From the NCBI GenBank assembly GCA_039938515.1, contig JBDUUL010000011.1, positions 1 through 64,000 of the forward strand: a stretch of DNA of 64,000 bases, read 5' to 3'. The stretch comes from Nitrososphaera sp. Lineage in GTDB: Archaea > Thermoproteota > Nitrososphaeria > Nitrososphaerales > Nitrososphaeraceae. The translations under genes were made by a program, and so were the position numbers. A model generated the notes under the pieces. The model saw only the letters and a program-made list of their open reading frames with translations. It made no database searches and was not told where the DNA came from. Below are positions 4,415-56,604 of the stretch, one piece after another. Each line of letters starts with the position of its first letter. Position 1 is the stretch's first letter.

Positions 4415-4555
4415 TCAACGTAGCGAAGACGTATTGACGACTAACTTTCGCAGTTTGTCGTCTATACTCATGAGCAACCTATTGTTTTCTTTCAAGAGCG
4501 CGGTGTTTTCCCGAATTAACTGTTCTAGCGAAATGGAGAGGTCATTCTTGGTCAC
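4415..4555 (-). CDS. 46-residue coiled-coil mini-protein, GTG start
   Basis: The reading is MTKNDLSISLEQLIRENTA, then LLKENNRLLMSIDDKLRKLV, then VNTSSLR. Leucines recur at near-heptad spacing (L..L..E.L..E.N.LL...L.KL), so it should form a short amphipathic coiled coil. The GTG start at 4553-4555 is supported by a strong TATA box (4579-4585 on this strand TTTTATA) 24-30 bases upstream, which places the transcript start on the GTG. It falls below usual gene-calling length. Function unknown; a small dimeric adaptor or regulator is possible. Confidence 0.55.
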   Translation of the reverse strand: MTKNDLSISLEQLIRENTALLKENNRLLMSIDDKLRKLVVNTSSLR

Positions 4556-4578
4556 GCCGAAGTATTGAAAAGCACAAG

Positions 4579-4585
4579 TATAAAA
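4579..4585 (-). promoter_or_regulatory. TATA box of the coiled-coil mini-protein
   Basis: TTTTATA on the minus strand, 24-30 bases upstream of the GTG at 4555. The spacing matches archaeal leaderless promoters and is the main support for that small gene. Confidence 0.55.
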
Positions 4586-4658
4586 CCAATCTGACTAAGC
4601 ACATCATAGTGCCAAGGTTTCAACGGATAACTATAAAGAAATGCGATCTACTATCAAA

Positions 4659-41859: not shown

Positions 41860-41925
41860 ACGGAACGGACATGAATAGCAGACCATGCAAAGCAATAATA
41901 GTTGTTTTCAGGCTCACAATTCTGT

Positions 41926-43107
41926 TTGATAGTTGGAGTCCCAAAGGAGATAAAGGACTATGAGAACAGGGTCTCACTCGTTCCAAGGTCGATAAGCTCT
42001 CTTACCAATGCGGGCATCAGAGTCATTGTCGAGGCTGGCGCAGGGGCCAGGAGCGGCTTTTCCGACGACGAGTACTCGGCGGCTGGCGCGACTGTTGTAA
42101 GAACCGCTAGTGAGCTGTATTCAGGCGCAGACCTGATCGTCAAAGTCAAGGAAATCCAGACAGCAAGGGACGAGGCAAAGATGCTCAAGCCCTCGCACGT
42201 GGTATTTGGTTTTAACCATTTCGAGTCGAGCAAGGAGCTGACCGACGTCGCGGTGCGTTCCAAGGCGACTTTCATCTCATTTGAAAAAATAGTAGACGTC
42301 AATGGCCAGACGCCCATCCTGATGCCCATGAGCAGGATTGCAGGCTCGATGGCGGGACTTTGGGGCGGATTTCTGCACAATTATTCCTTCAGACACGCAA
42401 AATCAATCAGGTTAAAGACCGGCGCCGACGAGACTAGGAACAGGTTCGTCAAGGAGTTTGAGCGCATCCTCGACGGCAACATCGACGACGACCTAAAGGT
42501 CAAGCTCTCACTCCAGGACAAATCCGTCGTGATATTCGGAGGCGGCACTGTGGGAGAGGCGGCGGCCAAAATAACTGCCGCTCTTGGCTGCAAGCTCACA
42601 ATCATAGAGAAGAGGGATTCTCGGAGGAAATACCTCGAGGAGCTGCGGTTTCCCCGTCTTTCAGTCAACCAGGCGGCAGACTTTGACACCCTGAGGGGCT
42701 CAACCGTCATTATCGGGGCAACATACGACAGGGACAAGGCGGACAGGATGATTAGCGAAAAACTTCTCAAAGAGATATCAGAGGTGCGCAAGAAGATAAT
42801 TATCGACGTATCCATCGACCAGGGAGGAAACTTTCCCTATTACGACATGGACGGGAAATACTCACCTTCGGCAATGTCGAGCATTCTAAATCCCGCACTA
42901 ATCGACCAGCTTGGAAACATCTTTGTCAGGGTTCCAAACATCCCCTCCATTGTCCCACAGTACGCGTCCTCCGCGCTGTCTTCGGTAGTGAGCAGGTACG
43001 TCATAGACCTTGCTCGCGGAAACGAACCCGGCGAGCTTCACACTGCGATTAGCATCAAGGCGGGCAAGATACTAGACGAATCCATTACAAAAGCGCACAG
43101 CTTGTAG
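41926..43107 (+). CDS. ald: alanine dehydrogenase family protein
   Basis: About 393 residues of the alanine dehydrogenase/NAD(P) transhydrogenase alpha fold. The opening 'VGVPKEIKDYENRVSLVP' carries the conserved KE..ENRV substrate-binding residues, 'FGFNHFESSKEL' follows, the nucleotide site is 'VVIFGGGTVGEAAAKI', and 'IDVSIDQGGNFP' matches the family DQGG motif. It converts alanine to pyruvate and ammonia with NAD+, or the reverse. The TTG at 41926 matches the family start, with a CAATAATAG box about 26-33 bases upstream. A less usual residue set around the Ala pocket cannot be excluded. Confidence 0.88.
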   Translation: MIVGVPKEIKDYENRVSLVPRSISSLTNAGIRVIVEAGAGARSGFSDDEYSAAGATVVRTASELYSGADLIVKVKEIQTARDEAKMLKPSHVVFGFNHFESSKELTDVAVRSKATFISFEKIVDVNGQTPILMPMSRIAGSMAGLWGGFLHNYSFRHAKSIRLKTGADETRNRFVKEFERILDGNIDDDLKVKLSLQDKSVVIFGGGTVGEAAAKITAALGCKLTIIEKRDSRRKYLEELRFPRLSVNQAADFDTLRGSTVIIGATYDRDKADRMISEKLLKEISEVRKKIIIDVSIDQGGNFPYYDMDGKYSPSAMSSILNPALIDQLGNIFVRVPNIPSIVPQYASSALSSVVSRYVIDLARGNEPGELHTAISIKAGKILDESITKAHSL

Positions 43108-43778: not shown

Positions 43779-43793
43779 GTGGGGCCGAAGGGA
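43779..43793. repeat. left attachment site (att core copy)
   Basis: GTGGGGCCGAAGGGA. On the minus strand it reads TCCCTTCGGCCCCAC and then TCTTATTTTC, i.e. the original tRNA-Trp end with discriminator A and a T-rich terminator, without an encoded CCA. Confidence 0.85.
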
Positions 43794-43872
43794 CTTGTCG
43801 CAAATTTGAGGTGAAGCCCAAAATGGTGTCAGTTCATGCAAAAACTAGTAGTTGCTAATACGCACGCTCTAC

Positions 43873-44097
43873 TTACTTGTTTCCAAAGCCAAATTCCTGG
43901 TCAAGCAGCCTAGAGAATACTGTTATTCTTGATAGAGCCTCGTGTATTGGCAGATAGTCAGGTTCTGCCAGGATAAGGCTCCGCAAGACGCTATGTTCAG
44001 GTAGCATTTTGAGCGCAGTCTTCTTCAGCTCTACTAGGCTGACCATTTCCTTCCATGCGTCCGGTCGCCTGTCTGCTAGAGCCAGTTTCTCCATCAC
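43873..44097 (-). CDS. small hypothetical protein of the element
   Basis: A 74-residue helical protein: MMEKLALADRRPDAWKEMVS, 'LVELKKTALKMLPEHSVLRS', 'LILAEPDYLPIHEALSRIT'. It is the leftmost gene of the element, 80 bases after the ATPase gene and in the same direction. No family is recognised. Confidence 0.55.
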   Translation of the reverse strand: MMEKLALADRRPDAWKEMVSLVELKKTALKMLPEHSVLRSLILAEPDYLPIHEALSRITVFSRLLDQEFGFGNK

Positions 44098-44177
44098 CGA
44101 CGGATATTACAGAGGGACATGCGTGGAATTACTGCGCGCATACCTTGCTCTTTGCATGGCTCACGCAGCAGATTCAT

Positions 44178-46202
44178 TCATACAAACGCGTCACTATTGC
44201 CTTCTTCCTTCTTTCTGAGAGCATTCTCGGACTCCTTTTCATCCGCTTTGAGTGGTCTAGCGGATGTCCGCATGTCTTTGAGCGAGTTTTTCAGCTCCCT
44301 CAGGGTCAGTATGCTTATCCTATTCGGATATTCTTTAACAAAAGCAAGCAGATGCTTGGTGTACTTTGCTTCCTGGTCTTCGTTTGGAACTATTACAACT
44401 TCCGATTTTCCTGGCTCTTGCTTTAGCGTTTCAGTCAGTCTTCTTTCCAGATTTTTCGTATTGTTGTTCGAAAGCCCTGTCTCAATCTCAAAGTTAAAGC
44501 CCTTCGTCTCTAGGTCCGGGTTGCTGAACTCCCCGGAAGTCGCATAATGCTCTATCTTGTAAACTCTGCCTATTGCATCCCTTGTCTTTGCCTGGAGATA
44601 CGAGTGCAACTGACTGACATTGCTCCCGCGCAGATAGCAGAAACTGAACGCGCTTTGCTCCTCGAACTCTTCAATTCTGATTGTCCCAGCTATTCCGGAG
44701 TTTACCAATTTCTTCAGAGTCTGCGAAACGGCAAACTTGACATCGTTGTATGGGACGTCATTGTGCTTCTCAGCTAACTTGTTGATGACATCTTTCTGGT
44801 ATGCAGGGAATAGGCTTGTCAGCTCCTCTTCAGCGATTACAACCTTTTCCTTTGGCTTCTGCTCATCCCCTCCCCCTGCCGCGCCATCACCCTTACCACC
44901 ACTAGCGCTCTGGCCAACCTCTACGCTTGCTGCCTTTTCCTCTTCTTTTTGTTGCTTCCTCACTTCCTGATGTAAATCTGGCTTGGGCTCAAGCTCCAAC
45001 GGGGGCACTTCGACTTCTACTATAGGTGCTACAAACTTGAACACCGGGACATACTCTGAGAATCTCGGAAACTGTATGTCGATGAACTCATACGCGGAGA
45101 GCTGCGATAACGCGTGGTGGAGTATTGGATTGATGCCCCTCACGATGGACAGGTCCGCGCTGCCTGTCTTGAAGCACAGGATGCTCGCAAAGTTCTGAAG
45201 GCTGGCCTCCCGTATCTCGCTCAATGCCTGTGTTACAACTATGAGCCTGCCCCTGTGGCGGATCTCCTTGCTCATTATGTGGATTATCGAGTGCTCCTGT
45301 TTCGTGACCCTGTGCGCTTCGTCCAGAACTATAGTAATTCCTGAGCGTCTGCCTGCCTCGATGTCAGCCCAGAGCTGTCTCAGTGCTAGCTCAGAATAGT
45401 ATGTTTTTGCCTGCGTATTCGGCAAGCCCGAAAAGTCGAGCACCACACTCTGCTTATCGCCAATCTCAATCGGCCTCTTCGCAGTCTCTATCACCAATTG
45501 CTTTGCGTTAAGCTCGATGTTCGCCAGCGTCTCTTGCTGATTCTTTGTCACCTTCTTTTTCATTGCCTCCAGCACTTCGAAGAACTTTTTCCACGACCTA
45601 TCGTTCGACGCATTGGTCTCAGTAACGATTTCACTGAGCAGCGACGCAGTTGCCTGCAGCTGTATCCCGGTAGTGACTCTTTCTAGGAAAGTGGTAAGGT
45701 ATGCTTGAGAGAACGCGTCTGCATCTGCAAAGATGTTAGGAAACGTGCTCGGAGCATCCACCCTCGCGATTCCTGCCTTGAGCGCTTCGTCGTTCGGTTT
45801 GAACGAAAACGCGATGATTTGCTGCTCATCCCTAATCGAAACGATCACGTTTTTGACAAGCACGCTCTTGCCACCGCCAGACGATCCGGCTATCGCTATA
45901 TTGGAATTGGTCTTCGCACGGACCAGCGAGAGCATGTCGATAGGAAGTATGCTGGTGTCGAACCTGGTGAATAGCGATTCGCTTGCTTCCTTGCGCTGTT
46001 CTCTGGCGAGCGCGGACTTTGGGAGTATCACATAGAGAAGTACGACCTCTCCGTTGAATTTCGGACTGATCCTGCGCTCCCTGTAAAGGTCGCCATCCTG
46101 CAAAAATTTGGGCCAATGGAATAACGGCGGCCTAAGCACTTTGTCCCTGTCGAGTAGTTCCTTGTAAGTCAGTCGATGCGTTTGCTCACCTGTGTCTAAC
46201 AT
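44178..46202 (-). CDS. HerA/FtsK-superfamily ATPase (DNA translocase or conjugation-type)
   Basis: About 674 residues from the ATG at 46202. An N-terminal domain of about 100 residues precedes the P-loop ATPase: Walker A 'IAGSSGGGKSVLVKN' (about 106-113) and Walker B 'GITIVLDEAHRVTKQ' (D294/E295), with an Arg-rich 'KEIRHRGRLIVVTQAL' sensor region. This is the HerA/VirB4/TraG style of hexameric motor. A charged, Gly-rich linker at about 415-460 leads to a winged-helix-like segment (AVSQTLKKLVNSGIAG) and a C-terminal alpha/beta part. It probably moves DNA, for transfer or packaging. The two genes just before it (46225-46927) are closely spaced and likely partners. Confidence 0.85.
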   Translation of the reverse strand: MLDTGEQTHRLTYKELLDRDKVLRPPLFHWPKFLQDGDLYRERRISPKFNGEVVLLYVILPKSALAREQRKEASESLFTRFDTSILPIDMLSLVRAKTNSNIAIAGSSGGGKSVLVKNVIVSIRDEQQIIAFSFKPNDEALKAGIARVDAPSTFPNIFADADAFSQAYLTTFLERVTTGIQLQATASLLSEIVTETNASNDRSWKKFFEVLEAMKKKVTKNQQETLANIELNAKQLVIETAKRPIEIGDKQSVVLDFSGLPNTQAKTYYSELALRQLWADIEAGRRSGITIVLDEAHRVTKQEHSIIHIMSKEIRHRGRLIVVTQALSEIREASLQNFASILCFKTGSADLSIVRGINPILHHALSQLSAYEFIDIQFPRFSEYVPVFKFVAPIVEVEVPPLELEPKPDLHQEVRKQQKEEEKAASVEVGQSASGGKGDGAAGGGDEQKPKEKVVIAEEELTSLFPAYQKDVINKLAEKHNDVPYNDVKFAVSQTLKKLVNSGIAGTIRIEEFEEQSAFSFCYLRGSNVSQLHSYLQAKTRDAIGRVYKIEHYATSGEFSNPDLETKGFNFEIETGLSNNNTKNLERRLTETLKQEPGKSEVVIVPNEDQEAKYTKHLLAFVKEYPNRISILTLRELKNSLKDMRTSARPLKADEKESENALRKKEEGNSDAFV

Positions 46203-46224
46203 CAGAAAATCGCCTTTTATCCTA

Positions 46225-46551
46225 TTATTCCTGACCCGGATCTTCGGTTTCTCCTGGCTCTTTCCTTGTGAAACTGATAACCCTGTGGCCCTTGTAAGTG
46301 ACAGACACTTTTGCATCCGGCTCCTCTTCTTCAGACTCAGTGAGGACCGCGACTATGACACCACCAGCGCCGATCACAGAACCGATTCCCGTTAGCACTT
46401 GCCAAGCCCAAAAGTCCTTCAGTGTAAACACCTTGCCGTTGAACACTGTCGGGAGGTATGCGTAATCGCCTGTTTCTGTGTACGGAATAACGAATGCCCA
46501 GGCAGAACCTACAAAGAATAAGGAAGTGTAGAAGAGCAAGCCCTTATCCAT
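46225..46551 (-). CDS. two-span membrane protein, partner of the ATPase
   Basis: A 108-residue protein: span 1 near the N-terminus (LLFYTSLFFVGSAWAFVI), an external loop, span 2 (WAWQVLTGIGSVIGAGGVIVAV), then a long acidic cytoplasmic tail (ESEEEEPDAKVS). It ends 22 bases before the ATPase start. The topology suits a membrane anchor or pore part for the motor. No family is recognised. Confidence 0.65.
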   Translation of the reverse strand: MDKGLLFYTSLFFVGSAWAFVIPYTETGDYAYLPTVFNGKVFTLKDFWAWQVLTGIGSVIGAGGVIVAVLTESEEEEPDAKVSVTYKGHRVISFTRKEPGETEDPGQE

Positions 46552-46561
46552 ACTCTACCAC

Positions 46562-46927
46562 TCAGAACTTCTCGACTTGGATGTCTCTATTCGGTTGCGC
46601 ATTGGTCGAAACTTGAAGTGAGTAGTTGACTTTGCGTATGATGCCCTTCTGCTGCGTAATACTTGCGGTAGAAGTAATGACCGGGTTTGATACTATGACA
46701 AACTTTTTGATGTTCGGGTCTTTGCGGAACGTCTCGGCAATCTGCAGATCTTGCTTTGCGAGAGACACCGCTTTCTCTGAAGTTCCGCACACCTGGTCAA
46801 GTATAGTGTGTATCAGGCTGTCTTCGTGCCTTGCAACTTTGCCGCCCAGAGTGACATACACTTCGGGCCTCGAGATTGTTTCAGAGAGCTCCTCAGAGCT
46901 CAAATTATTTCCTCCATGTGTAGACAC
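46562..46927 (-). CDS. hypothetical soluble protein of the ATPase cluster
   Basis: A 121-residue protein with an N-terminal acidic helix (LSSEELSETISRPEVYVTLG), a helix 'HTILDQVCGTSEKAVSLAK' and a beta-rich end (KKFVIVSNPVITSTASI; IIRKVNYSLQVSTNAQ). It is 10 bases before the membrane gene, so it is in one operon with it and the ATPase. Function unknown. Confidence 0.6.
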   Translation of the reverse strand: MSTHGGNNLSSEELSETISRPEVYVTLGGKVARHEDSLIHTILDQVCGTSEKAVSLAKQDLQIAETFRKDPNIKKFVIVSNPVITSTASITQQKGIIRKVNYSLQVSTNAQPNRDIQVEKF

Positions 46928-46999
46928 TCGAAGTTAATCTATTAGGAGAGTGATGGCGTATGTGTCTAGACGCGCAGTTGTAGATCTATGCGTATTGAA

Positions 47000-47329
47000 C
47001 TATGCCTCTGTTGCTGAAGAGGCGAAGTTTGAATGTCTATACATGTCATTCGGAATAGCTCCTATTTCCCTTAGAATCTTGATATGCCTTGCAATTGTTT
47101 CAGGTGTTACAGAAAGCATTCTGGCAATAATACCCATGCTCCTAGGGGGATTTGCTCTAAGCAGAGGCATCAAATAATCAAAATCGAAGGAATGGCGTCG
47201 TCTTATCTCTATGATCGTAATCTGTCTGCGTGACCTTTTCATCCTATAGTATTCGAGGAGGAGGGTTGCAAGCTCTTCATCATTAGCGAATGTTTTGAGT
47301 CCGGTACCTTCGTCCAAGAAAACCGGCAA
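47000..47329 (-). CDS. winged-helix regulator of the element
   Basis: A 109-residue protein. The middle has 'RSRRQITIIEIRRRHSFD' and a helix-turn-helix (RSMGIIARMLSVTPETIARHIKIL) with the feel of MarR/IclR-type winged helices. A TTG start at 47329 follows a TGAGGACGG stretch that overlaps the end of the zinc protein gene, so the two are co-translated. It probably controls element genes; a tandem operator-like repeat lies just upstream at 47503-47523. Confidence 0.65.
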   Translation of the reverse strand: MPVFLDEGTGLKTFANDEELATLLLEYYRMKRSRRQITIIEIRRRHSFDFDYLMPLLRANPPRSMGIIARMLSVTPETIARHIKILREIGAIPNDMYRHSNFASSATEA

Positions 47330-47335
47330 CCGTCC

Positions 47336-47500
47336 TCACCATACGAGCCCGCTATCAAAATTGGGGTACTTCTGCTTATGGAACCTTAGCCTGTGGTGTA
47401 TGACACAATAATCGTGCACATCCCAGCCATATGGGCCGCAGTCACGACAATACCAAATCTTGAATTCCTTAGAGCAGTTGGGTTCCCGGCACGAACGCAT
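47336..47500 (-). CDS. 54-residue Cys/His-rich zinc-binding protein
   Basis: The reading is MRSCREPNCSKEFKIWYC, then RDCGPYGWDVHDYCVIHH, then RLRFHKQKYPNFDSGLVW. Cys at 4, 9, 18, 21 and 32 with two His after it suggest one or two zinc sites. The ATG (47498-47500) is directly downstream of the tandem repeat at 47503-47523. It ends six bases before the start of the winged-helix gene. Likely a small DNA-binding protein of the element. Confidence 0.55.
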   Translation of the reverse strand: MRSCREPNCSKEFKIWYCRDCGPYGWDVHDYCVIHHRLRFHKQKYPNFDSGLVW

Positions 47501-47502
47501 AT

Positions 47503-47523
47503 GATGTATACCAGATGTATACC
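47503..47523. promoter_or_regulatory. tandem 10-bp repeat, operator-like
   Basis: GATGTATACC at 47503-47512 and again at 47514-47523, period 11 bases, about one helix turn. Each holds the palindrome GTATAC. It abuts the start of the zinc-protein gene (minus strand) and lies between it and the AbrB-like gene, so it is well placed as a binding site for an element regulator. Confidence 0.5.
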
Positions 47524-47535
47524 ATAATAAAAACT

Positions 47536-48273
47536 CTACCCCCTTTTAAGCTCCTTCTTTATGGTCTTCAAATCGGGTTGAGGCACCTTTTCAAAAATCA
47601 ACCGACCATTCTTGTCGACTTTAACGTATAGGTTTGTTTTAGTGGTGATTTTGAGAAATTCCCTCTCCTTTTTAGGGATAGTAATTCCCAAGGTACGCCC
47701 ATGTACAAAGGGCTTAACTATGGGGTATAGCACTTCGGTTTGCACATCCAAATCATCACGGTTTTCTTTTTGGCCGTCTTTTTCAATCAATATATCACCA
47801 AATAAATTCACAATTTCGCGAGATAGCTCCTCTTGTTGTGCATGGTATTCTGCTCGGGTTCTCACATCGAGCTCTTCTAATAGAATGAACTTTTGCCATG
47901 CTACGAAACCTTCTGCTCGGCCGTTCTCATTTTTTCGAAATGAGACAAGAACCTTGCCGTGTTCTACAGCCGGGCGAGCGAACACTTTGACATCCTGAAA
48001 ATCTACGTTTTTTTGACCTTTTTCCTTGCAAAAGACTACAACTCCGTAATCGGTATCAATGAAAAGTGCATCAATTGAGTCCTTGTGCACAATGTTAGTA
48101 AATTCATCAATGTCATCAATCACCATGGGATCCACATACCGTTCGGTTTTTGGTGCGTTCAGAAAGTCTGGTGGAAACTCAAAAGTTCTGATTGATACCT
48201 TTCTTTTTACTTCAATTTGTTTATCAGTCGTTCTCGGTTGCTGAATAGGCAGCTTTGCCTTCTTATCGTCCAA
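47536..48273 (-). CDS. protein with C-terminal AbrB-like DNA-binding domain
   Basis: A 245-residue protein. The last 55 residues (IVKPFVHGRTLGITIPKKER, then 'FLKITTKTNLYVKVDKNGRL') match the AbrB/SpoVT swapped-hairpin fold. The larger N-terminal part (about 40-180) has mixed structure with 'ALFIDTDYGVVVFCKEKGQK' and is not recognised. AbrB-type proteins act as transition-state regulators or antitoxins. No toxin is directly adjacent, although a HEPN-like gene is next upstream. Confidence 0.65.
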   Translation of the reverse strand: MDDKKAKLPIQQPRTTDKQIEVKRKVSIRTFEFPPDFLNAPKTERYVDPMVIDDIDEFTNIVHKDSIDALFIDTDYGVVVFCKEKGQKNVDFQDVKVFARPAVEHGKVLVSFRKNENGRAEGFVAWQKFILLEELDVRTRAEYHAQQEELSREIVNLFGDILIEKDGQKENRDDLDVQTEVLYPIVKPFVHGRTLGITIPKKEREFLKITTKTNLYVKVDKNGRLIFEKVPQPDLKTIKKELKRG

Positions 48274-48427
48274 TTATCAGTGATAAATGATTCTTTATCA
48301 TTCTTATTCTTTCGCTTAAAGTTCGTTTTTACATTGGGATACCCGGATGCAACAGGTGTTTCGCTTAGGGTCGATTCAAGTTGATTAGCAGGTATAAGGA
48401 TGAATCTACAATTTGAATTGCTGATCG

Positions 48428-48889
48428 CTATTCGCTTTTTGCGAGAACGAACAGGGGCCTATCAGCTTCCACAGCATTTGACAGTTCTACGAGAGTCGCA
48501 ACTGCCTTGATCTTGAACTTCGTAAAGATGTCGATCTCGACCTTTTCGTTCAAAGAGCCAGCTGGCGTTGTCTCCATGGCATCGATCATGTTTCTTATCG
48601 CGGCCTCCTCGGGTTCTAAAGTGTGTGCATACCTATTCCTGATTCTTTGGATTTCCCGCACATTGGTGCGATACGGCTCAACTAAAAAACCCGCATGCTC
48701 TGCAATCCTTATCTTCAGTTCTAGATTGAAGGCCGGATCCTCAATTGCCTTTGAGGGAAGCGAGAATTTCCTCTCAAGATATTTGTCGAGTATATTCTCG
48801 AGATATATGCCAGCTTCGATGAAAACGTCACGCGGACTTGAATCGTCTATAACCCGGTGAATATCGGCCATCTGAAAGGAAGGTTCCAT
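48428..48889 (-). CDS. HEPN-like protein (MltR/DUF4145-type)
   Basis: A 153-residue helical protein. 'RDVFIEAGIYLENILDKYLE' and 'LKIRIAEHAGFLV' lead to 'IQRIRNRYAHTLEPEE', where R-N-x3-H fits the Rx4-6H active motif of HEPN RNases, also seen in the MltR/DUF4145 relatives that may lack activity. In a mobile element it could be a toxin, a defence nuclease or an RNA-binding factor. A nucleotidyltransferase antitoxin partner is not seen nearby. Confidence 0.6.
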   Translation of the reverse strand: MEPSFQMADIHRVIDDSSPRDVFIEAGIYLENILDKYLERKFSLPSKAIEDPAFNLELKIRIAEHAGFLVEPYRTNVREIQRIRNRYAHTLEPEEAAIRNMIDAMETTPAGSLNEKVEIDIFTKFKIKAVATLVELSNAVEADRPLFVLAKSE

Positions 48890-49137
48890 TGAAACTACTA
48901 GCGCTAGTTATTGCTCGAAATACTTAATTGCTGCCTCCCGGCTATTTGCTTTGCCATTAGACTTGAAGGCTTCATTCAGCTCCTTTCGTCCGGAATACAA
49001 GCGGTCTGATCAGGCGATATTTTGAGTGAACGATAGAATTTAGAAATATTTGGGACAATAAGGTTGATGGCTGCCCAGGCTAAAGGAAACTTGATGTGCG
49101 CCAATATATAGAAATATAAGTTAACTCTGACTGTCCT

Positions 49138-49404
49138 GTGACCAAAGGTATTTTTGCTCCCAGTCTTAGGATATTGTTGAGAGTTCTCGAGCACTTAATG
49201 GAAGGTCCAAGTAGTTTGTCCTCGATTCAAATGAAAGGGAGAGTGAACCATTCACGTTGCAAAAAGTACATTGAATGGCTAGAGGATCGGGATTTGGTTG
49301 AGTCGCTTGTTGAAAAACGAAAAGCCAAGCTACGACTCACCCCAGGCGGACATCATTTTGCTTTGGTTCTTCTTGGCAAAAAGCCTCAATTGAGGACAAA
49401 ATAG
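49138..49404 (+). CDS. small winged-helix protein (ArnR1-like)
   Basis: An 88-residue protein: 'LRILLRVLEHLMEGPSSLSS', recognition helix 'NHSRCKKYIEWLEDRDLVES', and wing 'KAKLRLTPGGHHFAL'. This is the same thaumarchaeal winged-helix style as 16002-16301. The GTG start has AATATATA and AAATATAAG boxes 19-35 bases upstream, so it is probably leaderless. It is the first of three plus-strand genes in the element and may control the two secreted proteins after it. Confidence 0.7.
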   Translation: MTKGIFAPSLRILLRVLEHLMEGPSSLSSIQMKGRVNHSRCKKYIEWLEDRDLVESLVEKRKAKLRLTPGGHHFALVLLGKKPQLRTK

Positions 49405-49488
49405 ACCTTTTTCCTGACTGAGGAGTCCTATTCTAGGTCGTATCGAACCTCGAACCTTATTAGCTGTGATTTTTCTGAAGAGGCTACC

Positions 49489-50661
49489 ATGAGAACCAAT
49501 TTCGGTCTCGTAAGTTCAGCAGTGTTGATGTCAATGCTTGTTTTGACAGCTGGAATCAGCTTGGCATCACTAAATCAACAAGCACACGCTTCTACAAACA
49601 CCTCTACAATAGTACCGAACATCAACGACCCGGCCTACATAAACAGCGTTCTTCCAGGAGCGATTTCTGATTCGGACCAAGCATTGATGGAACGGATTGC
49701 CCTGGCAAATGTCCAAGTGAAAGATGCCCTCGCAGGTAAGAGCTATGAATTCATGTCAACTAGTTACCTGACTGAGAATGTGATGGCAAGCCCGGTGCAT
49801 TGGGATCCGGTGACTCACCTTAATGTGGCCAACAATACAGAGTTAGCAGTGATCATTGACATGCAGTCCGAGACTGCGAAATCAGTCATATCGGGACCCC
49901 TGACAACGGCTTGTACTGGGGATTGTTTACACCACACCTGGGCAGATAACTGGGTGGGCAATGTGGGGTCAACCCCTAATTATCTAGACGTCCAATCTAC
50001 TGCCCCGTCCTACACCAGAAATCACACTCCGATACACGGCGGACAATCGCTTTATCTTAATGGAATGATGTTAGTATCAGACGACAATCTGCTCTGCACA
50101 TCCGCTGACTATTACTCGGACTATTGGAACCAAGTCGGATTTAACTGGGACACGAGTTCCGATACCACTCTCGTATATACTGACACCAAACTCGGTTGCA
50201 TTAATCAGCTAAGTGGTATGACTTACACTAGCGGGCACAACTACAAATTCGAAGTAAATGGAAACACAAACAATCCCAGCACGCATAAAGGATGGACAGT
50301 TGCGGGGATCGACCTCAATACATTTGTCGCGTTTACCAACCAATTCAATTATGATGTGAGGTACAGCGGGATAAGATACAGCGATCTGAATACGGGTGTA
50401 TTTTTCGAAAACCGCGAGTCTCAGGCAAGCGAACCCAACTGGGATACAAACTTTGCTTCAAATCCAACTGCAACCGCCGCGCACTATTCGACGAACGGGG
50501 GAAGCACAGTATCTAATTGGCCGACGAGTACTACTGAGGACACCACCTGCAGCGGAGGAACCACTACGCCCAGTGCAGTCATGGGAAGTACCAATCTACA
50601 GAGCGGTGGAACAGCGACCTGGACTAAGCACACGATGTACACTAATCTGCCTGCGTGCTAA
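49489..50661 (+). CDS. large secreted cargo protein, unknown family
   Basis: A 390-residue protein with a signal peptide (LVSSAVLMSMLVLTAGISLA, cleavage near HAS-TN). The mature part is beta-rich, full of Asn/Thr/Ser with Trp and Tyr (HWDPVTHLNVANNTELAVII; YYSDYWNQVGFNWDTSSD), and has Cys pairs (TACTGDCLHH; LLCTSADY; LGCIN; a final Cys near the end). There is no C-terminal anchor. It looks like an exported, maybe disulphide-bonded binding protein or adhesin carried as cargo. Confidence 0.75.
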   Translation: MRTNFGLVSSAVLMSMLVLTAGISLASLNQQAHASTNTSTIVPNINDPAYINSVLPGAISDSDQALMERIALANVQVKDALAGKSYEFMSTSYLTENVMASPVHWDPVTHLNVANNTELAVIIDMQSETAKSVISGPLTTACTGDCLHHTWADNWVGNVGSTPNYLDVQSTAPSYTRNHTPIHGGQSLYLNGMMLVSDDNLLCTSADYYSDYWNQVGFNWDTSSDTTLVYTDTKLGCINQLSGMTYTSGHNYKFEVNGNTNNPSTHKGWTVAGIDLNTFVAFTNQFNYDVRYSGIRYSDLNTGVFFENRESQASEPNWDTNFASNPTATAAHYSTNGGSTVSNWPTSTTEDTTCSGGTTTPSAVMGSTNLQSGGTATWTKHTMYTNLPAC

Positions 50662-50806
50662 CGTCCCTCTTTTTTTGATTCGCAAATGATATTGGCTGTG
50701 TTCACGGGCATTTTGGACCGGTGTCTCGACATTTGGCTAAATGCGGCTTAGATTCGCTTGCATAAGGTTATTTAGCAACGCAATCGGAGACCATCAAAGA
50801 CTCAAT

Positions 50807-51802
50807 ATGATGATTCTAAAGTTAATCCATTCAGCACTTCAGTCTGTTTGCTTAGCTCTCGTGCTAAGCGTTATTCTTTTTGGACAATCGACTTTAATGA
50901 ACGGCCGGAAAGATGCTTATGCTAATGAACCGTCTCTCACTATCGCAGTCCATAACACGATGTTGCCAACGGTATTTATTATTGGGAACGTTTCGCATCT
51001 TGAGAATTCTACGACCGAGCTTCCGATTGACCAAGTCAAAATTGACGTGTTGTATGAAAATGGCTCTCTGTTCAAATCAGAAGTTGTTCCACTAGACACA
51101 AAGTCGCATCAATACTCATTGTCGCTTGATTTCACGACTAACGAGACGATTAGTGTTGAAGGCACCAAGGCTTTAGCGCCATCTGGAACCTACAAAATAA
51201 TAGCAACGTATGGCAAACAGAAGGCGGAGACAACTTATGAACTTCAAGAAACACATTCCCAACCACCAGGCGGTTCGATACCAACCTATTCCTTGAAAGT
51301 CGATGGGAAAATGTACACCATTAATTACAAAGTGACCAGCTTTAACGGTAATGGAAGCTCTACTAATTCTCTGAATTCGATCAGCTTGAGCCCCCAGAAT
51401 AGATCGATGATCCTGAGTATAACTTCACCATTTAATGGGTCTATTGACCTCCATCTGCCGAGATCGCTAATCAATTCGACAAGCGATTCTGCTAGGTATG
51501 GCAATGGTAATAGTTCCGACTCTGCATTTCTTGTCGCCGAAGACGGAAGACCTACGCATGAGTTTTTCGACATCGCGGGACCCGAAAATCTAACAAGGGC
51601 GCACTACATCTTTGGCCTGAATGCCGATCCAAACTTCCGAGATCTCGAGATTAATTACCCAGCGGGCACAACTCAAATTAGCATAACTGGCACTGAAGTC
51701 GCTCCCGAGTTTGCTGAAGGTTTAACCATTCCTTTTGCCGGAGTTGCAGCTGCAATTATACTAGCGATATCGCTAATCCGCCGACGCTATCCGAAGCTAT
51801 GA
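50807..51802 (+). CDS. secreted surface protein with PEF-type C-terminal tail
   Basis: About 331 residues from the ATG at 50807. A hydrophobic leader (LALVLSVILFGQS) is followed by beta-sandwich-type domains rich in Asn/Ser/Thr with many N-glycosylation-type sites (LENSTTELP; SFNGNGSSTNSLNS), and a C-terminal sorting-type end: PEF motif (EVAPEFAEG), a membrane helix (FAGVAAAIILAISLI) and basic RRRYPK. The same tail type is on the cupredoxin at 32306-32941. The pair with 49489-50661 is the cargo of the element and would alter the cell surface. Confidence 0.75.
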   Translation: MMILKLIHSALQSVCLALVLSVILFGQSTLMNGRKDAYANEPSLTIAVHNTMLPTVFIIGNVSHLENSTTELPIDQVKIDVLYENGSLFKSEVVPLDTKSHQYSLSLDFTTNETISVEGTKALAPSGTYKIIATYGKQKAETTYELQETHSQPPGGSIPTYSLKVDGKMYTINYKVTSFNGNGSSTNSLNSISLSPQNRSMILSITSPFNGSIDLHLPRSLINSTSDSARYGNGNSSDSAFLVAEDGRPTHEFFDIAGPENLTRAHYIFGLNADPNFRDLEINYPAGTTQISITGTEVAPEFAEGLTIPFAGVAAAIILAISLIRRRYPKL

Positions 51803-51887
51803 GTACTCACAGCCATACGTAACGCGCTCATGTATGCCTCATCAAAGCCTTCTCTTCCGTTACTGCGAACTAGTGCTGACACTACAA

Positions 51888-51938
51888 CACTTTAGAATTG
51901 CATCGTGTGCGCACACTTCAGGCTATACATGCACACAC
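51888..51938. repeat. CACTTTAG / GTGCGCAC repeat module, convergent intergenic copy
   Basis: CACTTTAG (51888-51895), then the 12-bp perfect palindrome GTGTGCGCACAC (51905-51916), then a further GCACACACTT (51931-51940). It is in the 324-base gap between two converging genes (51803-52126), so it is not a plain promoter. The same gap holds TTCAC-TTTG-GTGAA and AGTTAA-N9-TTAACT inverted repeats. It is a candidate replication or recombination site of the element. Confidence 0.5.
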
Positions 51939-52126
51939 TTCAAAAGCACACTAGAAGAGAGTGCAGGTCTCCGCTAGCTGAATAAGACATCACCGCGGGA
52001 TTTCACTTTGGTGAATACTTCCACATATCCAGACTCAAGTTAAATCGCTCGCTTAACTATAGTAAATCACTAGGCTAGCTGGTTCTCCCTCTGTTCCTAT
52101 TCTTTGTCTACCTTCCTATTCCGTCT

Positions 52127-52402
52127 CTATCTTTTCGAAATCAGGAGTTCTCTTTCTAGCTGCTTTGAGGTAATCTGCGGTATGCTGCCAATGCTGATCC
52201 GTTCGCTATCGTCATGACTCAGAAACGCGAATTCTCCGTCTTGCTTCGCCGGCTTATCAGACCAGAAATGCCTTGCATAATCGATTGCAACCTCCTCAGC
52301 ACTCTCGATAGTATTTGCCCTGACTACACGCTTTAGGTAGTATTCATTGTCTGCGTTTGTGACATCGAATACCACCAAGTAAAGCCTGCCTGGCTTGTCC
52401 AT
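52127..52402 (-). CDS. hypothetical protein of the element
   Basis: A 91-residue alpha/beta protein: MDKPGRLYLVVFDVTNADN, 'YYLKRVVRANTIESAEEVAI', 'FAFLSHDDSERISIGS'. The first strand and helix layout suggests a small single-domain protein. It ends the minus-strand operon 54000-52127. No family is recognised. Confidence 0.6.
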   Translation of the reverse strand: MDKPGRLYLVVFDVTNADNEYYLKRVVRANTIESAEEVAIDYARHFWSDKPAKQDGEFAFLSHDDSERISIGSIPQITSKQLERELLISKR

Positions 52403-52406
52403 AGCC

Positions 52407-52814
52407 TCATTGGCCTTCTTTCCGCCTCTCGCTGGCCTTCCTGCCTTTCTTAATTAGCGAGTCTCTGACTAATACTAATTCTTCCTCGCCGAGCTGCCGG
52501 AATACTTCTACAAGCAGTGGCGATACAGCCACAGCCTGCTCTGGCTCTACATCATACTCATATCCCACGATTTGCTTCGCAGTCTCTAACCTCCTTGCAG
52601 TCCTTTTCTCAACCTCACCGAGCTGCTTTTGGTTTAATAGCTCGCCTGGCTCAATCTGAGTTCCACGTGCCCTCCTCGACTCTTCGACCAATTCTTTTAT
52701 CCTGTTGCTTGCTGTCTTCTTGTCTAGTTGTTCTATCTCCGTAGGAGACACACCAAATCTGGCCAAGGTCTCCGCCTGTCGTTCTGTTGGTTTTGTCGTT
52801 ATAGTTCCGTTCAT
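52407..52814 (-). CDS. hypothetical helical protein with TxxQ..L..xGV motif
   Basis: About 135 residues from the ATG at 52814, which has GGTGGG just upstream. The first part (TERQAETLARFGVSPTEIEQ) followed by 'LDKKTASNRIKELVEESRR' is a helical motif seen in various small DNA-related proteins, where a short helix and 'K..As..I..L' follow a Gln. The rest is charged and helical, perhaps a coiled coil. It may bind nucleic acid. Four bases separate it from the next gene. Confidence 0.6.
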   Translation of the reverse strand: MNGTITTKPTERQAETLARFGVSPTEIEQLDKKTASNRIKELVEESRRARGTQIEPGELLNQKQLGEVEKRTARRLETAKQIVGYEYDVEPEQAVAVSPLLVEVFRQLGEEELVLVRDSLIKKGRKASERRKEGQ

Positions 52815-52884
52815 TTTTCCCACCATTAGCACAATCTATGATTTTGAAGTTCCTTAATCCGATGCGTTTGCTTCGGTTTTCAAT

Positions 52885-52915
52885 CACTTTAGCAGAGCGG
52901 TGCGCACACACTTTA
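52885..52915. repeat. CACTTTAG / GTGCGCAC repeat module, promoter copy
   Basis: CACTTTAG (52885-52892), GTGCGCAC (52900-52907), then CACTTTA again (52909-52915). It lies 70-100 bases upstream of the gene starting at 52814 on the minus strand. Confidence 0.55.
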
Positions 52916-52938
52916 CAAAGGCCATGTTCACGGTCATT

Positions 52939-53262
52939 TCATGACACTGCTTCACTCTTCGTTTTTATCCAGATGTTGATTTCATTTTCTTCATTTGAAA
53001 GCCTGTCTTCCTGTTCCAGCATACGCTTGTAAGCATGCAACATTCCAATGCTAAGTTGCGAGTAATCGCCTTCAACGCTTTCTGAAATCGTTTCTATTGC
53101 CTTCTCATAATCCATCGTTGGAATATAGTCAGCGAGTAGCGAGAGCTCAAACTCGTCAAAATTGCATGCCTCGTCACGTTGCTCAAAAGTCAGAGCATTC
53201 AAAGAAGCCTTCCTTCGCTCGAACCTTTGTTCTCGTTCTTCTTTTGTAAGTTTAGATTCCAT
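52939..53262 (-). CDS. hypothetical acidic helical protein
   Basis: A 107-residue charged protein: MESKLTKEEREQRFERRKAS, 'DEACNFDEFELSLLADYIPT', 'AIETISESVEGDYSQLSIGM', 'HAYKRMLEQEDRLSNEENEI'. Helical throughout, with no cysteine motif or membrane span. It follows the 53273-53803 gene by ten bases in the same direction. Unknown family. Confidence 0.58.
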   Translation of the reverse strand: MESKLTKEEREQRFERRKASLNALTFEQRDEACNFDEFELSLLADYIPTMDYEKAIETISESVEGDYSQLSIGMLHAYKRMLEQEDRLSNEENEINIWIKTKSEAVS

Positions 53263-53272
53263 GTGTGCACGC

Positions 53273-53803
53273 CTAGTTCCTCATTCCTTCCCTTGCCTGC
53301 TTTGCCAGCATAGCCTCGTTCTCAACGTCTTCCTTGTCCCATCTCTTCAGATAGTCGATAAACTCTTTGCTTGTGAATTTGCCATCCCATAATTCCAAGT
53401 CGATGTATTTCAGAGAGTTTGTAAACTGCAGTATCGCAGTAGTATTCAGGTATACGTTGGCCAAGGCAACGAACACGTCTCTTTCAGGCTCTGGAGCCTG
53501 CTCACATTCCTGCCTATATCTGCCCTGCAAGCCCATTCCAAGAAAATCGAACACTCTGAACTTTGGTATAGTAAGGTCATAAACTGCCTGCTTTATCCCG
53601 AGCGTTTCGATGCCGAAATACTCTAGCGTTCCTGCAACTGCGAGAACGTCGTAACGGTTAAGGCTATTTCGAACATCAACCGATGAAGGCTCCTTCCTTT
53701 CTCCCTGCTTGATTAATCTGTTCCATAGCTCACTTCTTGGCTCTGCCTTTGCACTTCTTCGTCTATCGATGGTATCACCTTTTGAAACATCCTGATAATG
53801 CAA
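53273..53803 (-). CDS. hypothetical protein of the element
   Basis: A 176-residue frame. From about residue 45 it reads as a globular helical protein ('RYDVLAVAGTLEYFGIETLG', 'VALANVYLNTTAILQFTNSL', 'LWDGKFTSKEFIDYLKRWD'). The first 30 codons overlap the upstream zinc-protein gene by 91 bases. The overlap region contains no other ATG, so either the genes truly overlap or translation starts at a rare codon inside. No family is recognised. Confidence 0.55.
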   Translation of the reverse strand: MHYQDVSKGDTIDRRRSAKAEPRSELWNRLIKQGERKEPSSVDVRNSLNRYDVLAVAGTLEYFGIETLGIKQAVYDLTIPKFRVFDFLGMGLQGRYRQECEQAPEPERDVFVALANVYLNTTAILQFTNSLKYIDLELWDGKFTSKEFIDYLKRWDKEDVENEAMLAKQAREGMRN

Positions 53804-54000
53804 GCGAGTTGGTCTTTGCTTAGAATCAAGTAAGCCCTTCCCAAGCGACTGCCTTCCATAACCTTGAACAGAAATCTGTCATGGTCTGAAATGTCCATCT
53901 CTTCCAGCTCCAGTCTATGGTCAGAGCCGAGTATCAAAATCTGTTTCTTTGGTTCGTTCGGTTCAAGATCACTTCCGCATGTTGCACAGACTCTTGGCAT
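53713..54000 (-). CDS. small protein with N-terminal zinc knuckle
   Basis: A 95-residue protein: MPRVCATCGSDLEPNEPKKQ has one C-x2-C knuckle, then an acidic segment (DHRLELEEMDISDHDRFLFK) and a helix (LSKDQLACIIRMFQKVI). It is the first gene of the minus-strand operon that runs from 54000 to 52127. Its start is preceded by two CACTTTA repeats within 32 bases, which may include its promoter (CTTAAATC lies about 35 bases upstream). Function unknown. Confidence 0.6.
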   Translation of the reverse strand: MPRVCATCGSDLEPNEPKKQILILGSDHRLELEEMDISDHDRFLFKVMEGSRLGRAYLILSKDQLACIIRMFQKVIPSIDEEVQRQSQEVSYGTD

Positions 54001-54005
54001 GGTAT

Positions 54006-54193
54006 CACTTTATACTCTTTAGTCACTTTAGATTTAAGATTCTTGAGAAATGCTTAGGTTTTACATAGCGTGCAGTTGAACATAAATCACTTTAGAATCG
54101 AAAGGTGCACACACATTCTTTAATGCTAGTCTGCTCGATGGGTTTGCTTTAGAAACACGGTGTGCACACAGTTGAGAGACAGGCTGTGCACGC
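54006..54193. repeat. cluster of CACTTTA and GTGCACAC repeats
   Basis: CACTTTA at 54006-54012, CACTTTAG at 54024-54031 and 54088-54095, and a GCTTTAG variant at 54146-54152. GTGCACAC at 54105-54112, the perfect palindrome GTGTGCACAC at 54160-54169 and CTGTGCAC at 54184-54191. A further TGTGTGCAC is at 53263-53271. The cluster fills most of the gap between the recombinase gene and the first operon gene (54001-54314). It could be a multi-site operator or iteron-type origin. Confidence 0.55.
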
Positions 54194-54314
54194 ATTCAAT
54201 ATACGATTTATTATCGATAATACCTTTTGAGATGTCTCGAACATATTCTTACAACCTTAAGCCTCGGATGGGCCCGCCGACCCCACATATCCCGTTATGC
54301 GGCAGGCAGGCCGG

Positions 54315-55649
54315 TCACCTTGGCATCTTGATTATAGCCCTGTTGTTTGGCAGGACAGCGCAAAACTCCCAGCCTTCCAGCAGCCATTTTTCAACTTCTT
54401 CAGCAGCCACTACCTTCTGGTTATTCCTGTTCGCATCAAGCTTTTGCTTCTGCTTTTCCCTGCCCAATTTGTCGATATCGTCAGACGTGAGCGTGGCCAA
54501 GTCTAGCTCCTTTGCTTCTATCTCTTCGTCAGAGTATCCCGCAACTTTGAGGAATTGCCTGTTCATCTGAGACTTCAGCTGGTCGATGTTGCTGCCACTC
54601 TTGTTCCAGGTGACCAGATGCTTGTCCGAAGCCTTGCGGAATGCAAAGCGCATCTTTTCAACTACGTCTTCTGGAAGCTTCTTGTTGAGCGTATAGGTAT
54701 GCTCGATATCGCCAGTGTGGCCCATCCAGAATACGCGGAAATCCCGAATAATGAGGCCGTCCATTTCAGCCACCATCATCCTGGTGTCAAAATACCTGCG
54801 GAGGACATAGGGTCTCCATTTGAAGCCGGCCCTTCTGATTGGGCGCCTTATTGCATCAGACAGGTTCACAGTCCGTAGATGCCCATTGGGCCCTCGGCTT
54901 GACTGATCCTTCCAGCCTTCATTGCCCTTCCACCAGTCCTGTGTAATCACAGCAGCCTTTGCGGTGATCTTTTCTCCCCTCCTGATGCGATATTCTATGT
55001 ACTGTTTCAGGTATTCGCACTCCTCAGCTGGAGCGAATGTGAAGTATTGGTGCCCGGCTTTTGACAGGTTCGCCCTGACAGTAATCATTGCTGGTATTCG
55101 CGCGAACTGGACAGCTCCACTCTGATCGATGACCATCTCTGGAATATCGTCCATGACCAATCCGTCGTTGCCTTCTGCATCTCCCAAGGACTCTGGCCTT
55201 AGTCCTGAGAGTGCTATCAGGCCAGCCGCTGCTTTGGCGCGTGGTGAACCAAAAGAGAATATCTTGTTGGCCTCTTCCTGGCTGGGCACCTTCTCGTCTG
55301 CCACCGTTACAAGCTCGTTTCTCCGCGAGATTTTGATCCGCTGATTTACTTGAATTCCGTTGAACGAGAGCCAGTTCTTTACAGGTTTGACGTTGTTTGA
55401 GATATACGAACCGCTCTTGCCCTCCTTTTCCAGCGCGGTCACCATGTCAAGGAGAAATGCAGAAGCTCTCTTCTGGTTCATCCTTGCGATGTCTTTTGGG
55501 AGGACGTTAAACCGCTTGTGTATCATTCCCATGCGTCTGAACCATTCAAAAGCGGTGTTGGTGCTTCCGCGTTTCACATTTTCATACCATCTTTTGAAAT
55601 TCTCGTCGTCAAAGAGATACACATACGGCGACTTGGCGAGCTCTGTCAC
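54315..55649 (-). CDS. tyrosine recombinase/integrase of the element
   Basis: A 444-residue intact integrase. The N-terminal 120 residues form a SAM-like arm/core-binding domain (AFEWFRRMGMIHKRF; 'ALEKEGKSGSYISNNVKPVK'). The catalytic domain has the first Arg in 'GLIALSGLRPESLG', a second Arg in 'RPYVLRRYFDTRM' (the usual His before it is Tyr here), His in 'WMGHTGDIEHTYT', and the nucleophile Tyr in the same segment. It would cut and join the 15-bp core in tRNA-Trp. It begins 49 bases from the right attachment site and is not split by it, unlike SSV-type integrases. The C-terminal 50 residues are a charged helical tail. Confidence 0.9.
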   Translation of the reverse strand: MTELAKSPYVYLFDDENFKRWYENVKRGSTNTAFEWFRRMGMIHKRFNVLPKDIARMNQKRASAFLLDMVTALEKEGKSGSYISNNVKPVKNWLSFNGIQVNQRIKISRRNELVTVADEKVPSQEEANKIFSFGSPRAKAAAGLIALSGLRPESLGDAEGNDGLVMDDIPEMVIDQSGAVQFARIPAMITVRANLSKAGHQYFTFAPAEECEYLKQYIEYRIRRGEKITAKAAVITQDWWKGNEGWKDQSSRGPNGHLRTVNLSDAIRRPIRRAGFKWRPYVLRRYFDTRMMVAEMDGLIIRDFRVFWMGHTGDIEHTYTLNKKLPEDVVEKMRFAFRKASDKHLVTWNKSGSNIDQLKSQMNRQFLKVAGYSDEEIEAKELDLATLTSDDIDKLGREKQKQKLDANRNNQKVVAAEEVEKWLLEGWEFCAVLPNNRAIIKMPR

Positions 55650-55696
55650 GGCTCAAATACGGACACAGAAGCTAAAAGGGTTTCACTTTGAAAACA

Positions 55697-55837
55697 TGGT
55701 GGGGCCGAAGGGATGTATTCTGACGCGGCGCGAGCCGCAATCATTTGAACCCTTGACCCACGGGTTTCTTCTAATCTACCACTAGCCCTTGTGTTAGATC
55801 TGGAGCCCGTTGCGATGCCTGGCTTCGCTACGACCCC
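55697..55837 (-). tRNA. tRNA-Trp(CCA) with two apparent introns
   Basis: Acceptor GGGGTCG (55837-55831) pairs with CGGCCCC (55707-55701; one G-U). D stem GCGA/TCGC with a GG-containing loop. Anticodon stem ACGGG/CCCGT and loop CTCCAGA, giving anticodon CCA. T stem AAGGG (55754-55750), loop TTCAAAT, and CCCTT (55712-55708). Two insertions break this: about 34 bases in the anticodon loop (about 55766-55799; inner TCTAA/TTAGA helix), and about 30 bases between the T loop and the 3' T stem (about 55713-55742; inner GCGGC/GCCGC hairpin). Removing both restores a standard cloverleaf of about 74 bases. Exact splice sites are not certain, as I could not fold a perfect bulge-helix-bulge for either. 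CCA is encoded at 55699-55697 by the element side. Confidence 0.85.
55699..55713. repeat. right attachment site (att core copy) within tRNA-Trp
   Basis: GTGGGGCCGAAGGGA, identical to 43779-43793. On the minus strand it provides the 3' T stem, acceptor strand and discriminator of the tRNA and continues CATG, so the element side encodes CCA. Confidence 0.85.
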
Positions 55838-56003: not shown

Positions 56004-56549
56004 GTGCCAGAAGAAACCCAGTTGCGGGCCAAGCGGACCCGCATAAAAATTCTCCGGGCACTTGCCAATCGCAACGGATCGGCGGGCTTTTCGGACATAA
56101 AGTCATTGACCGGCCTTTCGACCGGGTCGATATACTATCATCTTGAGCGGATGGACAACTATGTGTCCAAGAGCGAGCGGCACTCGTACAGAATAACAGA
56201 GGAGGGACGGGAGCTTCTCCGCCAGCTTGACAGCTCCAAAACTGCCCATTCAAACGTGCAGAAGAAGAACACCAACCATGACCAGCAAACCGGGGCGGGT
56301 GGCGGCGAAGAAACGCTAAACGGACGCGGCTCCGGCTCGGCCGGGAGATTTTTGGTCGTCCTTGCGCTCGCCGCCGCGGGAATCGCAATCATGCTGTCCG
56401 TCTTGACGGGTGCGACTGTTGCTCCTTCCGGCGGTAGCTTCCACTCTGTGGGCATCCTGCTTTTTACAGCCGCTGGGAGCAGCTCCTGCATTTCGCTTCA
56501 TTGCTTGGCCGCGGCACCTGCATCATATTCGCGGCCTTGGCACTACTGA
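56004..56549 (+). CDS. winged-helix protein with C-terminal membrane helices
   Basis: A frame of 181 codons from a GTG. Residues 1-75 are an ArsR-like winged helix (RIKILRALANRNGSAGFSDI; 'TGLSTGSIYYHLERMDNYVS'; wing 'SYRITEEGRELLRQL'). A polar linker follows, then one clear membrane helix (FLVVLALAAAGIAIMLSVL) and a second weaker one. Membrane-tethered winged helices of this kind are common in Nitrososphaera-like genomes and may sense signals at the membrane. The last 20 residues (Ser/Cys/Ala-rich, ending PASYSRPWHY) are odd, so a frameshift near 56480-56500 is possible. Confidence 0.7.
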   Translation: MPEETQLRAKRTRIKILRALANRNGSAGFSDIKSLTGLSTGSIYYHLERMDNYVSKSERHSYRITEEGRELLRQLDSSKTAHSNVQKKNTNHDQQTGAGGGEETLNGRGSGSAGRFLVVLALAAAGIAIMLSVLTGATVAPSGGSFHSVGILLFTAAGSSSCISLHCLAAAPASYSRPWHY

Positions 56550-56604
56550 AATACCGAGACAAGGGAGTGCCAGCTCGCCGCTTTTTTCACAAAACAACAG
56601 GATT

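Follow-up and report, generated by a model that had tools for sequence, protein, structure and literature searches.

A predicted HerA/FtsK/VirB4-type ATPase in an integrated element at the tRNA-Trp gene of Nitrososphaera sp.

Among the integrated elements of ammonia-oxidising archaea, the majority are "cryptic", with a means of movement that is still to be explained. The question is raised by a 64-kb stretch of Nitrososphaera sp. DNA (the whole stretch that was analysed, hereafter the window), in which an 11.9-kb insert bounded by 15-bp direct repeats lies at the 3′ end of the host tRNA-Trp gene. Is this block indeed a mobile element and, if so, what might move it?

An insertion in the tRNA-Trp gene

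An exact repeat search located the distal, left copy of the att repeat, GTGGGGCCGAAGGGA, at positions 43779-43793 and the right copy at 55699-55713; splicing of the tRNA by hand identified the latter as the last exon of tRNA-Trp. Exact repeats at both ends, one of them forming the tRNA 3′ end, are what the first-pass annotation had described. The repeat is present at exactly two sites in the window, even when up to 2 mismatches are allowed (chance expectation 0.10). The G+C content is ~45% in the element vs. ~53% in the flanks.

The tRNA-Trp(CCA) gene, found in orthologous form in 15 of the 18 genomes of the genus, occupies positions 55700-55837 (about) of the minus strand. Two introns interrupt it, the first at the anticodon loop (~55799-55766) and the second at the T loop (~55742-55713), and for this reason the unspliced gene was missed by ARAGORN. 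The hand-spliced form was recognised by this program and labelled Trp|Leu (ccag) because our manual splicing retained one extra base in the anticodon loop; the actual anticodon reads CCA. The Rfam search returned a chance match only. The att repeat coincides almost exactly with the last exon; this accounts for a repeat of such small length being sufficient to restore the tRNA.

An empty site with both flanks is present in a related genome, G013 (locus L146), where a homologue of alanine dehydrogenase is followed by 660 bp, tRNA-Trp and then homologues of the right-flank genes (window positions 57894 onward). In the window, the alanine dehydrogenase gene is in the left flank, at 41902-43107, and in three further genomes (G003, G016 and G017), this gene directly adjoins tRNA-Trp. 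Taken together, these arrangements identify the 43779-55713 block as an insertion. Conservation of the whole block in place without repeats was looked for and was not seen in relatives. We therefore conclude that the block is a real mobile DNA element integrated in tRNA-Trp, as had been proposed. A winged-helix gene and a TFIIB paralogue (56004-57771; TFIIB at 56605-57771) lie outside the element, between tRNA-Trp and the conserved right flank; the pair is present at this site in G010 and absent from G013, G014 and G015.

Integrase, remaining genes and an element-specific motif

The element contains 17 credible genes in three transcription blocks (minus, plus, minus); the three blocks are as described earlier, while the count of about 18 genes was not borne out. 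At the right end is a gene for a 444-aa tyrosine integrase (54315-55649, minus strand), which is divergent and scores under the Pfam cut-off. An alignment with six homologues, in which the R..K..YxxR..H..Y set is invariant, showed that R151, K197, Y281xxR284, H311 and Y319 are kept, so the recombinase is intact, as first noted. Members of the same integrase family, 45-47% identical, adjoin tRNA-Ala(CGC) in the same genome (L040, G000:C21 3140-4589) and in G013 (L043, G013:C9) at loci without the ATPase genes described below. They are taken to be other elements that use the same integration module. Two loci from a different family of the order, L111 and L123, combine an integrase of this type with the ATPase. 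A search for att repeats retrieved none for L040 at tRNA-Ala, none for L043 and none convincing for L111.

The left, minus-strand block starts with a conserved 74-aa protein (43873-44097), whose homologue adjoins the ATPase gene in L113 and L124 (E about 1e-5). Next come the ATPase gene and two small genes that form a trio with it, discussed in the following section, and then genes for a 109-aa winged-helix regulator (47000-47329; PF08279 over the cut-off), a 54-aa Cys-rich protein with CxxC-type cysteines (47336-47500), a 245-aa protein with a C-terminal MazE/AbrB-like domain (47536-48273; PF04014 below the cut-off) and a 153-aa DUF4145-like protein (48428-48889; Pfam match below the cut-off, phrog_5483). 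The plus-strand block encodes an 88-aa winged-helix regulator (49138-49404; PF14947 over the cut-off) and two predicted cargo proteins. The first of these (49489-50661, 390 aa) has an N-terminal hydrophobic, signal-like segment and should be secreted; it has no PDB relative, and its homologues in G014 (39% identity) and G015 lie in a 20-kb stretch without an integrase of the window family. The second (50741-51802, 353 aa) is predicted to be secreted or anchored at the surface by a C-terminal span and matches no Pfam family. Five small genes on the minus strand (52127-54000) encode products of 91, 141, 107, 176 and 95 aa, the last with CxxC cysteines. No window protein other than the integrase, the 74-aa protein and the members of the trio has a detectable homologue in the other ATPase loci retrieved, and this holds for the products of the five small genes too.

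Across the 2.56-Mb genome, the motif CTTTAGMA-N4-9-GTGYRCACA has four copies, each of them in the element, intergenic and on the same strand; a control pattern gave zero matches. One copy, CTTTAGAA-N7-GTGTGCGCACAC (51890-51915), lies in a 324-bp gap (51803-52126) between two converging genes, which makes a promoter role unlikely for it; the second is at 52887-52908 (plus strand), and the third and fourth (54090-54113 and 54147-54168, plus strand) are between the integrase gene and its neighbour. Candidate roles of the motif are those of an operator, an iteron and a transfer site. It was absent from a repeat search of the matching element of genome G020 and is therefore not a trait of the ATPase element family.

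How should the element be classified? Thaumarchaeal cryptic integrated elements (CIEs) have no signature genes, are mostly smaller than 20 kb and have att repeats with a median length of 17 bp (Krupovic 2019, PMC6563490). They occupy tRNA 3′ ends, those of intron-containing tRNAs included, encode a tyrosine integrase and often lack a recognised rep gene (PMC6563490). The window element resembles them in its size, tyrosine integrase, short att repeats, location at the 3′ end of an intron-containing tRNA gene and lack of a recognised rep gene. It combines an integrase with att repeats, and no T4SS pair or capsid was found among its genes; since the published definition of a thaumarchaeal CIE is that of an integrated element other than a provirus, casposon, IS or ICE, the window element belongs to this class and is of an already known kind. 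Thaumarchaeal ICEs carry a VirB4 and VirD4 pair and VirB6-, TFIIB- and ParB-type genes, whereas there is one motor ATPase and no such partners within 43779-55713. A Pfam search of the element for Orc1/Cdc6, RepSA, RepAM and Prim-Pol was negative, and no origin or rep was recognised.

The predicted motor and its probable membrane partner

The largest member of the trio is a 674-aa ATPase (44178-46202, minus strand). The longest frame starts at 46316, but the ATG at 46202 is favoured by where the upstream gene ends and by comparison with homologues. A motor (residues ~46-392), a probable winged helix (~453-527) and a PD-(D/E)XK-like tail (~528-648) can be distinguished. In profile comparisons, the motor matched STIV B204 (the top match in PDB), HerA and VirB4, and in structure comparisons, it matched VirB4 (7e-12), HerA (5e-11) and the coupling protein TrwB (9e-8). 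The CedB, TraC and VirB4 profiles match the ATPase under their cut-offs, and FtsK_SpoIIIE (PF01580) reaches 16.7 bits vs. a cut-off of 24. Profile and structure comparisons thus assign the motor to the HerA/FtsK/VirB4 superfamily, in agreement with the earlier proposal of a HerA-type motor as the core of the element.

The modelled topology of the tail, alpha-beta-beta-beta-alpha-beta, is that of the predicted PD-(D/E)XK core. Its best structure match is the nickase N.BspD6I, with a probability of 0.99 but an E-value of 0.012; the nearest solved structures (N.BspD6I, Mus81 and XisH-type proteins) have E-values of only 0.01 to 0.4. In place of the canonical D...(D/E)xK site, the window ATPase has D...E-x-E, the catalytic Lys being replaced by Glu (E-I-E), and its nuclease activity is therefore doubtful. 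D-x-K is present in the tail of three relatives (L119, L120 and L121).

The second trio member (46225-46551, minus strand) is a 108-aa membrane protein with two spans, and the third (46562-46927, minus strand) is a 121-aa soluble protein. The trio recurs in an element at tRNA-Ile in G020 (locus L008), where the counterpart of the 108-aa protein is a 148-aa protein with two spans, matching in position and topology, and where the homologue of the 121-aa protein (33% identity, or 32% in a separate alignment) occupies the same position with the gene order kept. This is the only other element in which the soluble protein was found, and it has no PDB relative. Neither the window nor the G020 ATPase has a span of its own, and in both elements the two-span gene is directly upstream. 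On the other hand, in the homologues from the Picrophilus plasmid pPO1 and from L125 and L127 (Ferroplasma and another Thermoplasmata locus), the ATPase polypeptide itself carries two membrane spans ahead of the motor. This fusion is the best argument that the 108-aa protein is a probable anchor holding the motor in the membrane. A simple hydropathy scan predicted at least one N-terminal span in 12 of the 22 ATPase family members and none in the other 10. Next to the ATPase gene, several relatives from family f9 (Nitrosopumilaceae-like) encode a 6-span protein without a Pfam family (L092 10776-11681, L122 6868-7761 and similar), which is reminiscent of CedA/VirB6.

The trio had been read as a DNA transfer or packaging unit. 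Its recurrence and the fused spans support a membrane-anchored motor, while packaging is disfavoured. A small provirus whose ATPase packages the genome would account for B204, a packaging ATPase, being the top PDB profile match, and for the matches of phrog_2666, labelled terminase, to 13 of 16 family members. However, no capsid-like gene was found among the element proteins scanned with Pfam and PHROGs, a search that a very divergent capsid would escape. In addition, the ATPase is about three times as long as B204 (210 residues), has the nuclease-like tail and, in half of the family, membrane spans, and there are no relatives among 50,697 phage records or in the IMG/VR pattern scans. We consider packaging very improbable, and a prophage reading was rejected for want of a capsid and of phage relatives.

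Relatives of the ATPase and possible modes of movement

Among 61 genomes of close relatives, only G020 encodes the window ATPase (full length, 53% identical), and of the 400 genomes of the order that a profile search covered, 15 have a family member. When the window ATPase or a 3-member alignment was used for pattern scans, neither IMG/VR nor the GTDB contigs gave a match, and the 16-member alignment was too diverse for pattern scanning. A scan with a closer set retrieved 11 ATPase loci in GTDB contigs and zero matches in IMG/VR; through the GTDB loci, the family extends to Ferroplasma acidarmanus Fer1, other Thermoplasmata, Micrarchaeota and a Nanoarchaeota MAG. A homologue on pPO1 was found by tblastn (29% over 66% of the query, E 3e-19).

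A tyrosine integrase is present in 15 of 15 Nitrososphaerota ATPase loci that exceed 5 kb in length; the locus that departs from this is on a contig of 4.7 kb. Three sister elements, all at tRNA genes, could be delimited with att repeats: those of G020 (14.6 kb, tRNA-Ile, 20-bp repeat, a different-looking integrase), L123 (8.7 kb, tRNA-Ile) and L122 (family f9; 13.6 kb, tRNA-His). Their cargo varies. The G020 element encodes a PF01555 methylase, a putative restriction enzyme, a TIR protein and an Orc1/Cdc6-like protein, and several sister loci encode secreted proteins. L122 also encodes a membrane-anchored peptidase A4 (3623-4624; glutamic-protease type) with an N-terminal zinc ribbon. In Thermoplasmata, a gene for a large surface protein with a signal and a C-terminal span adjoins the ATPase gene (L125 7592-9730, L127 1868-4270 and L133 983-4639); two of these genes, those of L125 and L127, are transcribed divergently, and their products end in a zinc-ribbon-like cytoplasmic tail.

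The absence of a recognised rep, relaxase and capsid had been taken to make the element a candidate for an undescribed family. No rep or capsid was found, but besides the class being known, "no replicon" is not a family trait, since Orc1/Cdc6-like genes are present in G020, L130 and pPO1 (similarity to the pPO1 Cdc6 is 23% for G020 and 44% for L130). A missing relaxase is uninformative because archaeal conjugative plasmids also lack typical relaxases (PMC6563490). What distinguishes the window element from CIEs as described is the shared ATPase, which defines a sub-family that reaches other archaeal groups and a free plasmid. We found no description of this sub-family, its pPO1 link or its spread over several groups in the open-access literature; an arCOG for the ATPase may exist. 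In the ATPase tree, the window and G020 proteins join L130, a Thermoplasmata contig, with 100/100 support and not the other Nitrososphaerota. L130 also encodes a resolvase 58% identical to that of pPO1 and a piece of a window-type integrase. The tree and this gene content suggest that ATPase elements moved between phyla, with the reservation that L130 comes from a metagenome bin that could be mis-assigned.

In the acid-loving archaeon Picrophilus oshimae, pPO1 replicates freely at 12-15 copies; its transfer has not been reported, and its ATPase homologue is annotated as FtsK-related (PMC3177234). Occurrence of the window genes at unrelated, non-integrated loci only, which would have spoken against a mobile element, was not seen, yet the ATPase is not confined to integrated loci either. 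The pPO1 and window ATPases are homologous and share membrane spans (on a separate gene in the window, fused in pPO1), a winged helix and a C-terminal E-x-E-T-G motif, whereas pPO1 differs in its free replication, Orc1/Cdc6, R-M genes, serine resolvase and lack of a tyrosine integrase. The copy number and absence of reported transfer (PMC3177234) would suit a cryptic integrated plasmid that spreads passively or on other elements and whose FtsK/HerA-like ATPase helps to segregate the element, to resolve dimers or to activate the tyrosine recombinase, in the way that FtsK acts on XerCD. The Orc1/Cdc6-like genes of relatives agree with such a maintenance role, and so does the resemblance of a motor with a winged helix adjoining a tyrosine recombinase to FtsK-Xer. 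Yet pPO1 keeps the ATPase although its recombinase is a serine resolvase, FtsK has no nuclease-like tail, and the window element has no recognised origin or rep; on balance, we regard a maintenance role as rather unlikely.

The reading that we favour, to which we give about an even chance, is that of an integrated plasmid-like or minimal integrative-transfer element working like ICETh1 of Thermus thermophilus (TdtA and NurA) or the AICEs of Streptomyces (TraB). ICETh1 is 14.9 kb long, resides at the tRNA-Ile 3′ end, encodes an integrase and forms an apparently non-replicative circle (PMC5365140). Its TdtA, a hexameric HerA/FtsK-type ATPase, is required for DNA donation (PMC5365140). The window element shares with it the tRNA 3′-end site, direct repeats, integrase, similar size, lower GC, a HerA/FtsK-type motor and the absence of known replication; the two thus agree in layout, with a motor gene and an integrase gene on a small unit inserted where a tRNA gene ends. 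The G020 sister element is like ICETh1 in its tRNA-Ile site, PF01555 methylase and putative restriction enzyme. However, ICETh1 is bacterial, has 47-bp repeats and encodes NurA as a separate gene product of another fold, and both TdtA and TraB are compared with the window ATPase on the basis of their published descriptions. In AICEs such as pSAM2, double-stranded DNA is moved by a single FtsK-like protein, TraB (PMC3218068). A tRNA site, a tyrosine integrase and a single FtsK-like DNA translocase are common to AICEs and the window element; AICEs differ in being bacterial and in having an FtsK/SpoIIIE (PF01580) motor and Rep proteins, whereas the window ATPase falls under the PF01580 cut-off and carries a nuclease-like tail. 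Ced/Ted is a host system for DNA import (PMC9905601). It is similar in combining a VirB4/HerA-like ATPase (CedB) with partner membrane proteins, as do the f9 relatives with their 6-span protein, but the window element has no recognised CedA- or CedA1-like protein.

By analogy with these systems, excision by the integrase would release a circle of 11.9 kb. Anchored through the 108-aa protein, the ATPase would assemble into a membrane-held hexamer and drive DNA, probably in double-stranded form, out of the cell or from one cell to another. Recognition of the DNA, and perhaps its nicking or trimming, would fall to the winged helix and the PD-(D/E)XK-like tail of the ATPase, so that neither a relaxase nor a full type IV secretion system would be needed. 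The transferred DNA would reintegrate at tRNA-Trp, while the secreted proteins would serve as cargo or as contact factors.

It should be noted that the motor resembles HerA proteins of defence and repair as much as those of transfer, which speaks against a transfer role. PADLOC mad8 matches over the motor (7.7e-14), HerA-DUF4297 and DptH are also among the structure and profile matches, and restriction-type neighbours are present in relatives: PF01555 methylases in pPO1, G020 and L125, the TIR protein in G020 and, in a Nanoarchaeota MAG, a GmrSD-HNH gene that overlaps the ATPase gene (L128 1672-4849). The last arrangement fits a defence or DNA-processing role. One could thus imagine an element-borne defence module in which the ATPase and its nuclease-like domain degrade or exclude incoming DNA. 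The window element, however, has no effector or methylase, the N-terminal membrane spans in half of the family and the constant integrase linkage do not fit, and ICETh1 also has a methylase, a restriction enzyme and a nuclease (NurA), the last two of which serve transfer (PMC5365140). A defence module therefore appears distinctly unlikely to us.

The transfer reading can be extended, tentatively and as a possibility that we would not put on a par with it, to an unreported archaeal family of minimal self-transmissible elements with a wide distribution. In such elements, a single membrane-anchored polypeptide, made up of a motor, a winged helix and a nuclease-like tail, would take the place of the type IV secretion system and the relaxase; the family would be found in Nitrososphaerota, Thermoplasmatota and DPANN and move between these groups. 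The spread of the ATPase suggests gene exchange among distant archaea. The window element looks like a stripped-down self-transfer element and not an isolated oddity, and a motor that recurs beside integrases and on a free plasmid is a concrete candidate for the means by which cryptic elements move. If true, archaea would have their own equivalent of the DNA pumping without a relaxase that is described in Thermus and Streptomyces.
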